64,000 nt of DNA. Source: Tepidisphaeraceae bacterium. GTDB taxonomy: Bacteria > Planctomycetota > Phycisphaerae > Tepidisphaerales > Tepidisphaeraceae. Of the stretch, positions 28,545 through 54,811 are shown in pieces (within the stretch, counting starts at the first letter, position 1; every line of letters begins with the position of its first letter). The notes under the pieces were generated by a model that worked only from the letters and a program-made list of their open reading frames with translations, searched no databases and was not told where the DNA came from. A program made the translations under genes and the position numbers. Location: contig DASYHQ010000018.1 in the NCBI GenBank assembly GCA_035998445.1, positions 558,001 through 622,000 on the forward strand, written 5' to 3'.

Positions 28545-28596
28545 GCGCATGTCCGCCTGTGTCCTTTAGAGCAGGGCGCACCTTGCCGTAGCGTTC

Positions 28597-39896: not shown

Positions 39897-41222
39897 TCAG
39901 GCAGTCACGCCTGCAATGGCCGGCGCGTCGATCTGGGGCAACTGCACCGGCGCCTCGGCCACCAAGCTAAACCGGGCGCGCCGCGGCACCATGGGCACGT
40001 AGCGGTTCAGCACCTCGCACACCTCGAACAGCCACATGCGCCAGCGGAGGGCCCACACGGGTTTGGGGAACACCTGGCCTGCCAAGATCGAGATGATCGC
40101 GCGGTGCACCTGGTGCGGCCCGGTGCCGTGCAGGAACAGCTCGCGGAACGAATGGCGGTAGTACCGGCGGATCAGCCGCCACAGGACGAACGTGCTGCCC
40201 TTCACGAACCGCACGTACGCCGCGTGCGCCTTGGCCGGCGCCATCTGCCCCTTCATCACCGCGATCGCCAGCCGTGCGGCCTCGCAGCCGCCGTTCATGG
40301 CCAGCGTGACGCCGGTGGAGAAGATCGGGTCCAAGAATGCACCAGCGTCGCCGATCAGGAAGAACCCCGGCCCCGCGTGCGGCGAACAGGTGTAGCTGAA
40401 GTCGGCCAGCACGCGGTTCGTCGGCTCGCCCACCGCGTTGCGCATGCGGTGCCGCACCACCGGGCACCGCGCGACCGCCCACTGCAGCAGGCGGTCCGGC
40501 GCGACGTTCAGTTCCTTCACAAAGCTCGGTCGGGTGACGAAGCCGACGCTCGTCTTGGTCTCGGTCAAACCGATGATCCAGAACCAGCCCTCGTCGCACA
40601 TGATGATCGTCGGGTGGCCGGTGGAGTCGCCGGGCAGGCGTTCGACGTGGTCGAAGTGCTGGAAGTAGGCGACCTTTTGCAAATGCGGGTCGTCGAAGTT
40701 CCGCCGTTGGCCCAAATGCCGACCGACCACCGTGCCATGGCCCGACGCGTCCATCAGCACGCGGCCGCTATACGTGCGGTCGGCGGTGGCCACCTCGCAG
40801 AAGCCCTCTTCCAGCCGGTTGATCTTCTTCACCGTCACCCCCTCGCACACCTCGGCGCCGGCCAGGCGGGCCTGGTCGATCAGCATCTTGTCGAAGTGTG
40901 AGCGTTCGATGTTGAAGACCGGCGAGCCCTCCACCAGCCCGTCGGCGAAGCGGAAGCGCATCGTGTTGTGATCGTTGCCCATGCCGAACTCGGCGCCGAG
41001 CTTCGTCAGGTGCGGCAGCTTCTTCAGCTCGTCCTCCAACCCAAGCTCGCGAATGATCGCCATGTTGCGCGGCAAAATCGATTCACCGATGTGGAAGCGC
41101 GGGTGATGGTCCTTTTCCAACACGATCACCTTCAGCCCCGCGCGGGCCATGGCGATCGCGGTCGTGCTGCCGCCGGGGCCGCCACCGATGATGACTGCGT
41201 CGTACTCGGGAGAAGCGTTCAT
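39897..41222 (-). CDS. Tryptophan-halogenase-family FAD protein
   Basis: 441 residues. It opens with the FAD motif YDAVIIGGGPGGSTTAIAMA, then FHIGESILP, equivalent to the GEST/SIP block of flavin halogenases and of the geranylgeranyl-reductase-like family. GDAGAFLDPIFSTGV is the second flavin motif. The halogenase marker WxWxIP appears as WFWIIG, lacking the proline, so true halogenation is uncertain. Xanthomonadins are brominated aryl polyenes and their clusters carry this family; a ring oxidation is the alternative. The ATG overlaps the chorismatase stop (ATGA). Confidence 0.8.
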   Translation of the reverse strand: MNASPEYDAVIIGGGPGGSTTAIAMARAGLKVIVLEKDHHPRFHIGESILPRNMAIIRELGLEDELKKLPHLTKLGAEFGMGNDHNTMRFRFADGLVEGSPVFNIERSHFDKMLIDQARLAGAEVCEGVTVKKINRLEEGFCEVATADRTYSGRVLMDASGHGTVVGRHLGQRRNFDDPHLQKVAYFQHFDHVERLPGDSTGHPTIIMCDEGWFWIIGLTETKTSVGFVTRPSFVKELNVAPDRLLQWAVARCPVVRHRMRNAVGEPTNRVLADFSYTCSPHAGPGFFLIGDAGAFLDPIFSTGVTLAMNGGCEAARLAIAVMKGQMAPAKAHAAYVRFVKGSTFVLWRLIRRYYRHSFRELFLHGTGPHQVHRAIISILAGQVFPKPVWALRWRMWLFEVCEVLNRYVPMVPRRARFSLVAEAPVQLPQIDAPAIAGVTA

Positions 41223-42154
41223 AGCTCAGTCGATCCTTCGATTGGGGCGTATCCTTCGATTTCCACCAGCAGGTCCGGCCGACACAAATCGGCATGCCAC
41301 ACCTGCACATCGTCGCTGAATGTCTCACGCGACCATTCGGCGATTTGCGACCGATCCTCGGCCCGCGGCACGTATATTCGCACCTGCGCGAGGCGCGACA
41401 GGACATCATCCGCATCGCTGCGCGCGACGCCATTGGCGGGCACGGACTTTAACAACGTACGCAGGTGGTCCAGCGTTAGCTCGAACTGCCGCCGCAGCAC
41501 GCCGGCGTGTCGGGTCTGCTCACCGGTGATGGCGGCGGTGCCGGAGATCAACAGCGCCTGTCGCGGCGCGCGCGTGAGCGTCGCCCGCGCAAAGCAAGGT
41601 GGCAATGGGCCGTACCGCGTCGAATAGCGGTACGCCGGCACCTGGTTGGCGTTCTCGATCGGCCGACCGGGCTCGTGCGTTGCCAGGGCGTGGATGACCA
41701 GATCATCCCCATCATGCCCCACCCCCGACGCCGCCGGCGCCAGCGAGGCAAGGCTCGGCCCGAACCACCGCGTCATGGCGGCGTGCCGGCCGGCGTTGAA
41801 GGTCATGTAGCGGTCGACCGCGTCGCCCATCGGGTCGCCAATACCTGGGACGTGGTTCCACATCCGAACGACGTGCGCGTGCGGGCCTGCGGCAATCGCG
41901 CACCGAATAACGTCGTATGCCGAGACGACGCGCGACCGGAACATGTCGGCATCAACGGCGGCGCGGGCGTCGACCACCCGAGCGGTGATCAGCGTGGCGT
42001 CGCGACCGGTCCGGATGGTCAACTGGACCGGCGCGGTCGATTGAACAGTCGATTCCGCTAACCCAACCCACGAATCCACCCACATCGGTGGCGCGCACTC
42101 GCGCGCCGCACTGACGCGAGCGGGCAGCAGAGGTTGTCGGATCACGTTCTGCAT
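41219..42154 (-). CDS. Chorismatase-family enzyme (FkbO/Hyg5/XanB2-like)
   Basis: 311 residues resembling the chorismatases that hydrolyse chorismate to hydroxybenzoate or dihydrodiol acids. Marks: VVRMWNHVPGIGDPMGDAVDRYM for the conserved RxWN-P-I block (split in two by variable residues), AGRHAAMTRWFG, PAASGVGHDGDDL, and ISGTAAITGEQTRHAGV, close to the family's GTASI-GE-ST strand. XanB2 of Xanthomonas makes 3- and 4-hydroxybenzoate for xanthomonadin, so here it may supply the polyene starter. It lies within the operon after the nested repeat. The subtype (which hydroxybenzoate) cannot be set by eye. Confidence 0.78.
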   Translation of the reverse strand: MQNVIRQPLLPARVSAARECAPPMWVDSWVGLAESTVQSTAPVQLTIRTGRDATLITARVVDARAAVDADMFRSRVVSAYDVIRCAIAAGPHAHVVRMWNHVPGIGDPMGDAVDRYMTFNAGRHAAMTRWFGPSLASLAPAASGVGHDGDDLVIHALATHEPGRPIENANQVPAYRYSTRYGPLPPCFARATLTRAPRQALLISGTAAITGEQTRHAGVLRRQFELTLDHLRTLLKSVPANGVARSDADDVLSRLAQVRIYVPRAEDRSQIAEWSRETFSDDVQVWHADLCRPDLLVEIEGYAPIEGSTEL

Positions 42155-42272
42155 GAGAATTCAGAGTCGATGGCAACGCTTCCGGTCCCTCTCCCGGCAC
42201 TCCGGGAGAGGCTAGGTGAGGGTGATTTCGATCTGCTGACGACCCTCGTTGTTCGAAATCGCCCTCACCTAG

Positions 42273-42430
42273 AGCGTGTTATGCACTTTCCAGCTCAGAT
42301 GCTGGCTTGGGTGCCACGGTTTGGTACTCCAAGCCGTGCCGGTACACGCAGACACGGCTTGGAGTACCAAACCGTGGCACCCAGCGTCGTCACGCCTGCG
42401 TTACGGGCCCCCGAAAGCGCCTAACACGCT
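42273..42430. mobile_element. Middle element: 158-bp MITE with 18-bp ends and CTAG duplication
   Basis: The ends AGCGTGTTATGCACTTTC and (reverse strand) AGCGTGTTAGGCGCTTTC match at 16 of 18 positions. CTAG occurs directly on both sides (42269-42272 and 42431-42434), as expected for a target duplication of an IS5-group element. It has no transposase. Confidence 0.82.
42309..42382. repeat. Inner element: perfect 30-bp inverted repeat, GGGTGCCACGG family copy 2
   Basis: Arms 42309-42338 and 42353-42382 are exact reverse complements around a 14-nt loop. It matches copy 1 (28597-28674) with one paired base change (TACTCC/GGAGTA against TACGCC/GGCGTA). It lies inside the middle element. Confidence 0.88.
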
Positions 42431-42482
42431 CTAGCCTCTCTCATGGGTACATGGGAGAGGGACCGGACTTCGCAAGTCTCAC

Positions 42483-44885
42483 CTACATCGTAATCGTTCG
42501 CTCGGGCGCCAGCGAGATCGTGGCCGCGGTGGCGTTGCCGTTCCAGTCGGTGCAGAGCGTGGTGAACCGGTCGACGCGCTCGCCGGGCCGCGCGAACGTC
42601 AGGTCGCTGTTGATCGGTGGCCGGGCCAGTGTGGGCAGCGAGCGACTGAGCATCGCCGCGGCCATGCCGAGCAACGGGCCGGCGCTGAAGGTTTCGCCGC
42701 ATAAGTCGTAGGTTGCGCCGATGCGAGCGTTGGGCGCACCGCGCGACAGCGCGTTCGCCTCGATGCGGTCGATCCAGGTGGCGCAGGCGCTGCTGATGAC
42801 GTGCGGCGCCGTCGGCGACAGCTCCAGCAACCGCGCCAGCGTGCGCGGCAGCAGTTCGCGATCGCCGCTCAGGGCATGGGCGGATTCCATGCGGGCGTAG
42901 GGTTGAACACCGCGTGCGCGGGCCGAGTCGGCCGACTCCATCACGAACGAGACCGCCCCACCGGTTGAGTTGAAACCCGTGGTCTCCGTGAACGGCCCGG
43001 CCGACACGGCGTGCGTCAGCAGGCCGCATTGTTCGTAGGCCTTGTCGATTGCGACGTGGCCTTCCTCACCGCCGCTGACGATCGTGCGGTCGCAGGCGCC
43101 GGTGGCGATGCGCAGCCACGCGAGGCGCAGTGCATCCATGCCGGCGGTGCGGGCTCCGATGATCGTCTGGCAAGCGTTCTTCAATCCCAGCATCAGGCTC
43201 AGCTGGGCCGCGCCACCGTTGGGCACGCCTTCAGCGAACAGGACCGGGTTGCCTGCCAGTACGCCCTCGCGAACCACCTGGGCGTAGTAGTCGTTGCAGT
43301 AGGTGCCTGAGCCGTGCGTGGTGCCGAGAATGGCGCCGGTGTCGGCCAGCAGGTCGGGCCGGTCGCTCAGTGCTGCATCCCGACACGCCATCGACGCCGC
43401 GGCGAGCGTGAACTTCGCGTAGGTGCTCATGCGGCGTACACGCCGGGCGTTCAACAGGTGCTCGTAATCGGCATCAACTAAGGGCGTGCGCTGGCGGTTG
43501 TAATGGTCAGCGCGCGTCGCGTGAAAGAAGGCGTCGTTCCCGATGATGCCGGGAAGAAGGACGCCGATGCCCGTGATCCAAACCTCGCGTGTACCGTGCC
43601 CATTTAGCCCCCGGCTTGCCGGGGGGGTTTTCTCGATCGTGGTTTCCCCCGGCAAGCCGGGGGCTATGGGGGACTGGGGCGTACCCAGCACGATGCACGT
43701 GTTGGCGCCGCCAAAGCCGAGGGACGTATTGAGCGTGGCGTTGATGGTCGCGTTGCGCGCGGCGCCGGTGGTGACGCGCAGGGACGGGTACTCCACATCG
43801 TCGGGGCCGATGTTCGCGGTCGCGGGCGCGACGCCGTCGCGCATGGCCATCGCGGATAGGATCAGTTCCGCCGCCCCGGCGCCGCCGAGGGTGTGGCCGA
43901 GGTGACTCTTGAAGCAGACGACCGGCACGTCGCTCAGCTTGTCGCCCAGCAGGCTGGAGAGGGCCGCGAACTCGGATGCATCGTTGTCGGGCGTGCCGGT
44001 GGCGTGGGCGGCGATCAGGCCGAGTTGGGCCGGTTCCAGCTTCGCGCGGTTCAGGGCCGCACGCATCGCGCGTTGCGCGCCGTCACCGGTCGGATGAGGT
44101 TGCGTAAGGTGATGCGCGTCGGCCGACTCGCCGTAGCCCAGTACGGTCGCCTGAACGCTCGCGCCTCGCTTAAGCGCATCGCTGCGACGTTCGAGCACCA
44201 CGATGCCGTACCCCTCGCCGAGCTTCATCCCCGTGCGCCCGCGGCTGAACGGACGCAGCGGCCCCTCGGCGACCAGCCGCAGCGCGTTGAACCCGGCCCA
44301 GGCGTACTCACTGACCGCGTCGTATCCACCGGCCACCACGAGGTCCGCCTGGCCGCTCTCGAGCAGCGTCATTGCCAGCGCGATGCTACCCAGGCTGGAC
44401 GAACAGGCCGAGCAGGTCGTCGCGGCGCCGCCGGCAAAGCCAAGGCCGGCGGACGCAAGGCGCAGCGTATCGCCGGCGAGGAAGTCGCGCAGCTCCGTGT
44501 AGTTTTCGTTACGCAGGAACCGCCCCCCCGCCCGCATGCCGTGCAGCGTGGTGCCGAGCATGAACGCGCAGCGCGTCGCGTCGTACGGCAAGCGATCGCC
44601 GTCGATCTTCGCATCCCGCAGCGCAGCCGACAGCGTCCAACGCAGGTAGCGCGCCTCGCGCGGCAGGTCAGGCTCGTAATCGGCCGGCAACGGGGGCGCC
44701 TGGCAGCCGTCGCGGCCCGGTGGCAGCGGCGATTCCATATCGACCATCACGCCCGCGCCGCACCGGTTGGCGCGCACGGCGGCCCACGTGTCGGCGACCG
44801 ATAGGCCGAGCGCCGTCACTAGGCCCATGCCCGTGATGACGATCGGTTCGCTGCTGATCTTCAGGTCAGTCGGCACGTTGCTCAT
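42483..44885 (-). CDS. Ketosynthase fused to chain-length-factor-like domain
   Basis: 800 residues, two thiolase-fold domains of about 400 each. The first is an active beta-ketoacyl-ACP synthase: Cys161 in SACSSSLGS, His294 in AHATGTPDND, Lys326 in VCFKSHLGHTLGG. The second (from about residue 435, VWITGIGVLLPG) lacks the nucleophile: GARTAGMDA places Arg578 where the Cys should be, as in chain-length factors. In aryl-polyene and type II PKS systems KS and CLF are separate, pairing proteins; here they are one chain. The linker (residues 405-432) is encoded across a perfect palindrome (43605-43666). The ATG at 44885 lies inside the end of the acyltransferase gene (20-bp overlap). Confidence 0.86.
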   Translation of the reverse strand: MSNVPTDLKISSEPIVITGMGLVTALGLSVADTWAAVRANRCGAGVMVDMESPLPPGRDGCQAPPLPADYEPDLPREARYLRWTLSAALRDAKIDGDRLPYDATRCAFMLGTTLHGMRAGGRFLRNENYTELRDFLAGDTLRLASAGLGFAGGAATTCSACSSSLGSIALAMTLLESGQADLVVAGGYDAVSEYAWAGFNALRLVAEGPLRPFSRGRTGMKLGEGYGIVVLERRSDALKRGASVQATVLGYGESADAHHLTQPHPTGDGAQRAMRAALNRAKLEPAQLGLIAAHATGTPDNDASEFAALSSLLGDKLSDVPVVCFKSHLGHTLGGAGAAELILSAMAMRDGVAPATANIGPDDVEYPSLRVTTGAARNATINATLNTSLGFGGANTCIVLGTPQSPIAPGLPGETTIEKTPPASRGLNGHGTREVWITGIGVLLPGIIGNDAFFHATRADHYNRQRTPLVDADYEHLLNARRVRRMSTYAKFTLAAASMACRDAALSDRPDLLADTGAILGTTHGSGTYCNDYYAQVVREGVLAGNPVLFAEGVPNGGAAQLSLMLGLKNACQTIIGARTAGMDALRLAWLRIATGACDRTIVSGGEEGHVAIDKAYEQCGLLTHAVSAGPFTETTGFNSTGGAVSFVMESADSARARGVQPYARMESAHALSGDRELLPRTLARLLELSPTAPHVISSACATWIDRIEANALSRGAPNARIGATYDLCGETFSAGPLLGMAAAMLSRSLPTLARPPINSDLTFARPGERVDRFTTLCTDWNGNATAATISLAPERTITM
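43605..43666. repeat. 62-bp palindrome inside the KS-CLF linker
   Basis: TAGCCCCCGGCTTGCCGGGGG at 43605-43625 is repeated as its exact reverse complement at 43646-43666. Each arm is also a hairpin (CCCCCGGC-TT-GCCGGGGG). It codes for residues about 407-427 of the fusion protein, exactly between the two domains. Confidence 0.88.
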
Positions 44886-45849
44886 CCTCTGTAAAAGCAG
44901 GTTCCAGCACCAGCCACTGTTGTGGGTACTTGGCGATAAACGTCTCGATGCGGTTCGCCAGCGCCCGCAGCGCAACGTCGACCGGATCGCCACCCGCGAC
45001 GGCGTCGGGGGATTCAACCTCGATCGCCTCGCACAGGTGAACCTCGTACCGCCCGCCCGCGGTTCGCACGACGAAGACAGGGACGATCGGGCTGCCGGTC
45101 AGCTGCGCCAGCTTCACGGGCCCGGTGGGCAGCCGCACGCTGCCGTGCAGCAAGGGGACGACTTGCGACCGCTGGCCCGGCATGGCGCGATCGCCTTGCA
45201 TGACGACGACGCCGTCGGCCAGCAGCGCGTCGCGCAGGCGCACGAGCGACGGCCAGCCGTCGTCGATCGGCGCTTCGTGCACGCCCAGCAGTTGCCGCAC
45301 GGCGGCGCGCAGGCGCTCGAAGCTGGGGAACGGGTCGCGCTTGAAGACGACGTGCACGTTCGATTCCACGCCGCGCAGCGCAGCCAGTCCCACCTCGAAC
45401 GCGCCCATGTGAGCCGTCACCAGCACCGCGCCGCGCTTGCGCTGCCGCTGGGCCAGGTAAGCGGGTTCGCCAATGACGCGTTCGATGCGGCTCGCCAGCG
45501 ATTGCCGCGTCTGCTGCGCGCTGCGGCCGGCGTCGGCGACGAAGTCGTAGAAGTTGGCGACCACGCCGCGCGTGAACCCGCTTTGTTCACTGCGTGACAG
45601 GCGCTTGCCGAAGATGCGCAGCGCGTTGGCGCGGGTCGCATCGCGCAACGGCCTGCAGAACAGGATCGCCAGCCGCACGCCGGCCGGGCGAATGAGGCGC
45701 AGCAACCACGGCGCGCGGGCGGCGACGAAGAAGAAGGTCCGCAGGGCGTTCGTGACGAGCGCGCTCGGGCCGGTGGCCGCGGCGTCGGGGTGGACGTTGC
45801 GCGCGGCGGGCAGGGGCGCGATCGGGATGGCCTGTTCGGTCTGCGTCAT
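44866..45849 (-). CDS. LpxL/HtrB-like acyltransferase of the aryl-polyene-like cluster
   Basis: 327 residues of the lipid A late-acyltransferase type. The catalytic HX4D/E motif appears as HMGAFE within LVTAHMGAFEVGLAAL; later blocks are VVVMQGDRAMPGQRSQVVPLL and GPVKLAQLTGSPIVPVFVV. In aryl-polyene clusters such an enzyme moves the finished polyene acyl chain from ACP to a lipid or glycolipid acceptor. The ATG overlaps the LolA-like stop by one base (TGATG) and its own end overlaps the KS-CLF start. Confidence 0.83.
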   Translation of the reverse strand: MTQTEQAIPIAPLPAARNVHPDAAATGPSALVTNALRTFFFVAARAPWLLRLIRPAGVRLAILFCRPLRDATRANALRIFGKRLSRSEQSGFTRGVVANFYDFVADAGRSAQQTRQSLASRIERVIGEPAYLAQRQRKRGAVLVTAHMGAFEVGLAALRGVESNVHVVFKRDPFPSFERLRAAVRQLLGVHEAPIDDGWPSLVRLRDALLADGVVVMQGDRAMPGQRSQVVPLLHGSVRLPTGPVKLAQLTGSPIVPVFVVRTAGGRYEVHLCEAIEVESPDAVAGGDPVDVALRALANRIETFIAKYPQQWLVLEPAFTEDEQRAD

Positions 45850-51370: not shown

Positions 51371-51487
51371 CCGGTCCCTCTCCCGGTACTCCGGGGGAGG
51401 CTAGGTGGGGGTGATTTCGAACTGCTGACGCCTGAGGAAGAACAAACCCCCACCCCAACCCTCCCCCGGCGTACCGGGAGAGGGGGC
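51371..51487. repeat. Palindromic element, CCCTCTCCCGG family
   Basis: Begins CCGGTCCCTCTCCCGGTACT and ends CCGGGAGAGGGGG-type, with internal CCCCCACCCCAACCCTCCCC. It shares about 60 bp of left end with the outer element at 42182. It lies between convergent genes, the helicase and the TIM-barrel protein. Confidence 0.78.
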
Positions 51488-52323: not shown

Positions 52324-52377
52324 CGCGTCGCTCGTACCCCGGGCCCGGGCGGCCCGCAGCCCATGTTTTGCATTACT

Positions 52378-52494
52378 CCCTCTCCCGGTACTCCGGGGGA
52401 GGGTTGGGGTGGGGGCGCTTTACCCATGCGGAGGATACCACCACCCGATGAAGACCCCCACCCCTGCCCTCCCCCGGAGTACCGGGAGAGGGGG
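52378..52494. repeat. Palindromic element, CCCTCTCCCGG family, second full copy
   Basis: Left arm CCCTCTCCCGGTACTCCGGG and right arm CCCGGAGTACCGGGAGAGGG are reverse complements. The centre differs from the 51371 copy except for GGGTTGGGGTGGGGG-type ends. It fills the 191-bp gap between the TIM-barrel and GT2 genes. Confidence 0.8.
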
Positions 52495-54294: not shown

Positions 54295-54811
54295 TGGGGC
54301 GTTGGGGGGATCGGCCGTCGTAGCGGGACATTGGTGCGCCCTGCTCATCCAGCACGTACGTGATCGCGGCGGTCAGCGACGCTTCGGTGTTGAGCCAGCG
54401 CGTGCTGCCGTGCTGCGTCCACCGGTCGCAATCGGGCGGCTCGGCGAACGTCTCGCGCAGGCGACGGCTGGTCCAGGCCTTCAGGTCGGACATCACCCGC
54501 TCGGGCCGCGCCGCGGTCGCCGACACGACGATGTGGACGTGATTGGCGCGCACGTGGACGGCGTGCAGATGCCAGCCGCGATGATCGGCGACCTCACGGA
54601 TCGTGCGCACCGCGACGTCGCGCCGCGGTCCGTCGAGCAAGTAAGGGGGGTGTCGCATCGCTTCGGCCCGCGCTCGTTCGAGCGCCGGATTCGCCGATAG
54701 GAATGGCGTGCCGGGCCGGTTGTGCTCGCGGTCGACCGAACCCGCGTCGCGGCCATGGAGCCAGGTACCGTACGTCGTAAACGTGATGAAGTACGCCAGC
54801 GGCGCGCCCAT
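54278..54811 (-). CDS. REP-associated tyrosine transposase (Y1, HUH)
   Basis: 177 residues of the TnpA-REP (RAYT) family, single-strand transposases related to IS200/IS605 TnpA. The N-terminal YFITFTTYGTWLHG block is typical. The metal-binding HUH motif is H91-V-H93 in ANHVHIVV, and the likely catalytic Tyr is Y152 in AAITYVLDEQG. RAYTs are single-copy domesticated enzymes that mobilise REP sequences. This gene is flanked within 15 bp upstream by REPs, and its C-terminus (NEPDA, stop) lies inside another REP, so these REPs are its probable substrates. Confidence 0.88.
   Translation of the reverse strand: MGAPLAYFITFTTYGTWLHGRDAGSVDREHNRPGTPFLSANPALERARAEAMRHPPYLLDGPRRDVAVRTIREVADHRGWHLHAVHVRANHVHIVVSATAARPERVMSDLKAWTSRRLRETFAEPPDCDRWTQHGSTRWLNTEASLTAAITYVLDEQGAPMSRYDGRSPQRPNEPDA

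Follow-up and report, generated by a model that had tools for sequence, protein, structure and literature searches.

The 328-bp gap between two genes of a putative pigment operon holds three nested repeats from three mobile repeat families, which very probably came together in two steps and not by three successive insertions. We propose that a REPIN would earlier have entered the ancestor of a miniature element (MITE), likely mobilised by a REP-associated tyrosine transposase (RAYT) whose gene is itself flanked with matching REPINs. In the first step at the present locus, a REPIN-like outer element would have settled between a ketosynthase and a chorismatase gene; in the second, an IS5-family transposase acting in trans would have inserted the REPIN-carrying 160-bp MITE at a YTAR sequence within the outer element, with duplication of the TA.

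Nested repeats in an operon gap

The window, i.e., the whole stretch of 64,000 nucleotides that was analysed (G000:C18:558001-622000), belongs to a draft genome of 5.84 Mb in 64 contigs. The nested palindromes sit at 42155-42482, in the gap that separates two minus-strand genes. The neighbouring genes encode LolA-like, acyltransferase, halogenase-like flavoenzyme, AMP-ligase and MMPL proteins, mostly with overlaps of a few bases, and the gap is the sole large one among these mostly overlapping operon genes. We take this gene set to fit an aryl-polyene or xanthomonadin-like pigment operon, the product being putative. No relatives of the chorismatase turned up in a search of named genomes. The features of the locus are as follows, with no strand assigned to the repeats:

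41219-42154, minus strand: FkbO/Hyg5-like chorismatase, downstream operon gene, coding sequence intact
42181-42271: left part of the outer element (REPIN-like, an inverted doublet), with the hairpin CTCTCCCGG-CACT-CCGGGAGAG and the first bases of the spacer, ending in the first TA (from the inverted repeat, related copies and alignment with the intact copy L030)
42270-42271: left TA target-site duplication, within the YTAR target CTAG
42272-42431: middle element M1, IS5-family MITE, 160 bp, ends GAGCGTGTTATGCACTTT / AAAGCGCCTAACACGCTC (from copies in the same genome and ends common to an IS5-family insertion sequence)
42309-42382: inner element, REPIN, GGGTGC-CACGGTTTGG-TACT-CCAAGCCGTG plus its reverse complement, with a 14-nt loop at 42339-42352
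42432-42433: right TA target-site duplication
42432-42467: outer element, right part; hairpin CTCTCATG-GGTA-CATGGGAGAG, terminal GGACCGGA
42483-45017, minus strand: tandem ketosynthase, upstream operon gene, coding sequence intact, true start probably internal
51371-51487 (approximate limits): uninterrupted relative of the outer element, with a diverged right half

The original prediction described three palindromes lying one inside another, and these are real. An inverted-repeat search of the window gave the same nesting, with outer arms at 42181-42195 and 42453-42467 (15 bp, 100%), an internal pair of the outer element at 42212-42231 and 42253-42272 (20 bp, 95%), middle arms at 42269-42290 and 42413-42434 (22 bp, 91%), and inner arms at 42308-42338 and 42353-42383 (31 bp, 100%, 14-nt loop). 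All three palindromes recur as repeat families in this genome: there are about 27 copies of the middle unit and at least 40 of the outer type, and the inner arm gave 120 matches at three or fewer mismatches against none for a reversed control pattern, the copy counts from DNA searches being lower bounds (scored candidates). Because each unit recurs genome-wide, the nested repeats are not a product of chance. No similar sequence was found in plasmids.

The ketosynthase-chorismatase junction is compact in five genomes of the same family, all of other genera: the two genes overlap by 4 bases in two of these genomes and lie roughly 60-110 bp apart in the other three. Given this compact junction in relatives and the intact coding sequences here, the insert, which adds about 290 bp at the junction, is an addition between intact genes.

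The outer element and the MITE that splits it

The outer element is about 124 bp long and comprises an inverted pair of hairpins, CTCTCCCGG-TACT-CCGGGAGAG and CTCTCCCATG-TACT-CATGGGAGAG; its tails read GGACCGGA, and there is an inner stem. Of the 26 family genomes searched, the own genome among them, 17 gave outer-type matches, as against none of the 35 that were searched from outside the family. The outer element was not found at any of the Y1 transposase loci examined, i.e., eight in the own genome and 29, from a longer list, in related genomes, and therefore we term it REPIN-like and not a REPIN. The absence of an adjoining RAYT, together with the fixed length near 124 bp and the defined ends (CCGGTCCCTCTCCC), would also suit a MITE of the DDE type. 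We consider this reading rather unlikely, however, since no target duplication was apparent by eye in 29 outer copies read with their flanks, and the element is an inverted pair of REP-like hairpins whose paired 37-bp units are present in relatives.

When M1 and one TA are removed and the flanks are joined, what remains is an outer element of 124 bp, which can be aligned over its full length with the intact copy L030. The rejoined flanks thus make up a complete outer element, and the MITE did split a pre-existing one, as had been predicted. The relative at 51371 that was originally put forward for comparison is indeed uninterrupted, but its right half is diverged and has no CTAG where the insertion would lie. 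The outer copies L030-L058 are better suited as empty comparators, since YTAR is intact at that position in most of them; empty target sites, a lack of which would have spoken against the prediction, are thus present in paralogous outer copies of the same genome. Another uninterrupted outer relative, with diverged CCCTCCCCC arms, lies in the window at 52377-52492. Separately, the contig pair C43/C50, if joined as we suppose, would probably be another instance in which a member of this insertion sequence family entered an outer-type element.

The middle element had been called a MITE of 158 bp; its identity as a MITE holds, while its length is 160 bp (42272-42431). Stand-alone copies, whose absence would have spoken against the prediction, are abundant: about 26 besides this one are scattered over unrelated sites and lie in either orientation, with an identity of 85-97% in most of them. 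TA is present on both sides in 23 of the 25 M1 copies that were read with flanks (L025 overlaps L006, so that one locus is counted twice), whereas the next base outward is C or T beside the left TA but can be G, A, T or C beside the right one. As these outermost bases vary independently on the two sides, the target duplication of M1 is TA within YTAR, and the element spans GAGCGTGTTA to TAACACGCTC. The 4-bp CTAG duplication that was originally read does not stand, for although CTAG flanks both sides here, only TA is constantly duplicated across copies; the CTAG is seen because the M1 ends read GAGC...GCTC.

At 160 bp and in many copies, M1 is too short to contain a transposase gene. Its parent was predicted to be an IS5-group element with AGCGTGTTA ends, and both transposase fragments at matching ends and a complete insertion sequence bear this out. 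In the own genome, the IS5-family insertion sequence was seen as pieces at contig ends, with its middle part missing at the contig breaks: at the ends of contigs C24 and C43, an M1-type end adjoins the C-terminal part of a transposase (Pfam DDE_Tnp_1_2), and the matching end is joined to the N-terminus of the same transposase at the ends of C6 and C50. A complete copy of 858 bp, with the same ends (one of them GAGCGTGTTATGCACTTT), TA flanks and an intact frame of 274 residues, is present in another genome of the family (G007); its protein scores 205 bits against the NCBIfam IS5 model NF033580 (cut-off 110), and also matches Pfam DDE_Tnp_1 and DUF4096. An IS630/Tc1-type parent, suggested by the TA target, was dropped after these ends proved to be joined to the IS5-family transposase. 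Judged by these shared ends, M1 is an IS5-family MITE that would be moved by an IS5-family transposase in trans. Like other IS5-family MITEs, it is short and geneless, has ends that match an IS5-family insertion sequence, and duplicates TA in YTAR targets; unlike them, its centre is filled by a foreign REPIN. At two contig breaks, M1 copies (L015 at the end of C12 and L019 at the start of C23) lie next to another transposase gene, in both cases at the same end of it.

The inner REPIN and the order of insertion

The inner palindrome, 74 bp in length, is a doublet of REP hairpins in inverted orientation: each of its 31-bp arms forms a small hairpin of its own, CACGGTTTGG-TACT-CCAAGCCGTG, after GGGTGC. 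Doublets without MITE ends were found at three loci of the own genome (L130, L133, and L134) and, at L179 and L180, in G002 and G003, which represent two other genera. Among the eight Y1-transposase matches in the own genome, L064 alone is flanked by inner-type REPINs, with two on each side of an open reading frame (1237-1806, 189 amino acids); the right arms of these REPINs are 97-100% alike and share a 28-bp core with the arms at the nested locus. The L064 protein scores 76.4 bits against the RAYT model NF047646, just under its curated cut-off of 80, and 29.6 bits for Y1_Tnp (cut-off 23), and has the motifs PDHLHLIV and GGGYDRNV. No inner-type REPs were found at the other Y1 loci examined, in the own or related genomes. 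A RAYT gene flanked by REP doublets is the defining arrangement of RAYT/REPIN systems (PMC2817692; PMC3116915), and the RAYT at L064, with its matching flanks, is the likely mobiliser of the inner REPIN. Two further Y1 transposase genes, L063 (C58) and L062 (C64), have other hairpins on both sides (GCATGGGCGTCTCGCCCATGC and GACAGGCATTCCTGCCTGTC, respectively), so that the genome probably holds at least three RAYT/REP systems. The window itself contains a short Y1 transposase match at 54437-54622 (L061), with a hairpin of 19-bp stem (GAAAACCGTCGCTTACGCGACG...) nearby.

The inner element shares with described REPIN/RAYT systems (PMC3116915; PMC2817692) an inverted REP doublet with a variable loop, a length of 74-81 bp, a large number of copies, and the presence of doublets on both sides of a Y1 transposase gene. 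It differs from them in that most of the copies found here are cargo within two IS5-type MITEs, and in that the MITE-borne arms are symmetric (a perfect 31-bp palindrome) whereas the RAYT-flanking ones are asymmetric. A further difference is that GGGTGC precedes the hairpin in nearly all copies, and a GTAG-type head beside the REP hairpin was not seen in them. Most, though not all, REPs have been sorted by such a tag (PMC3733652); since the GTAG-type head is a feature of some REP classes and not of REPINs as such, its absence narrows the class without excluding a REPIN. In Rfam, the perfect hairpin gave only sub-threshold matches to microRNA precursors, which we take as chance.

The presence of the inner palindrome in all M1 copies might suggest that it is an internal inverted repeat of the IS5-type MITE's own, and not a REPIN. 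This is very improbable, as the same unit also occurs within a second MITE backbone with different ends, is found by itself in other genera, and lies on both sides of a RAYT gene. The second MITE family has ends GAGCAGGGCGCACCTT... / GAGCAACGGACCTATTCC..., a length of about 141-145 bp and TA flanks in most copies, with an inner-type REPIN at its centre; one copy lies in the window at 28569 to about 28710, and the loci assigned to the family are L073, L075-L083, L123-L128, L132, L136, and L137. At L003 (C28:37807-38085), a copy of this second MITE lies directly against an M1 copy at CTAG, so that here, too, one insertion is nested in another or in tandem with it.

The REPIN is present in 27 of 27 M1 copies, at the same place within the element and at unrelated loci, and hence was inside the MITE before the present copy jumped. 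The full M1 and REPIN composite was found in this genome only, among the 26 of the family, and the REPIN alone was found in others, which indicates that the REPIN entered the MITE ancestor first, that the composite subsequently multiplied, and that one of its copies later hit the outer element. The original order of outer, middle, and inner is therefore right in placing the outer element before the MITE and wrong in placing the inner palindrome last. An empty MITE that received its palindrome last, at this locus, would be compatible with the geometry of the nesting taken alone, but is scarcely credible given the constant position of the palindrome in all 27 copies; the sole REPIN-less copy that was found (C37, L070) still has ACCC from the right arm of the REPIN and can be explained by a deletion between two TGGC repeats. 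Nesting geometry alone can thus mislead on insertion order, and here the comparison of copy families reversed the inner step.

Expression of the operon and spread of the REPINs

The gap, taken as a minus-strand RNA of 328 nt, is predicted to fold at -200 kcal/mol (z of -13 against shuffles), and it interrupts a run of mostly overlapping genes. REP hairpins affect mRNA stability in other bacteria. The stack might thus have been co-opted as a regulatory RNA between the operon genes, as a partial terminator, a processing site or an mRNA stabiliser, a possibility that the original prediction had raised in the form of a separating hairpin and that we regard as improbable. A strong fold is expected, since any such palindrome must fold so; near-identical copies at about 26 other places would fold likewise, no intrinsic terminator or promoter pattern was found in the gap, and relatives have the same gene junction without the insert. 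Most likely, the package is a passive, tolerated selfish insertion that is neutral here, with at most polar or mRNA-stability effects: the very stable hairpin that it places in the transcript may reduce or abolish any translational coupling at this junction, or alter mRNA stability.

Insertion sequences that target REP elements have been described (PMC1525189; ISPpu9, PMC8450116), and they resemble the present case in that a DDE-type element lies within a REP-like palindrome. However, the target here is a YTAR site in the outer doublet, most M1 copies are located elsewhere, and the inserted element itself bears another REPIN. In an incomplete survey of the literature, we found no direct case of a nested MITE plus REP.

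Compared with the 23 others, four of the 27 M1 copies (L019, L020, L021, and L024) have the 14-nt REPIN loop turned around with respect to the MITE backbone, their sequence being otherwise unchanged. This suggests an inversion between the REP arms, though it may be an assembly flip.

REPINs are moved by HUH-type tyrosine transposases and, to our knowledge, have been thought wholly dependent on their RAYT. We see an even chance that, in this lineage, REPINs are standard cargo of IS5-type (DDE) MITEs, with the core being inverted in some copies by recombination or cruciform processing. Under such a cargo role, the same REPIN at the centre of two MITE backbones would mean that it spreads by a second transposition machinery. 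If this is true, a cargo REPIN would have two independent routes of spread, and its copy number would no longer track the RAYT.
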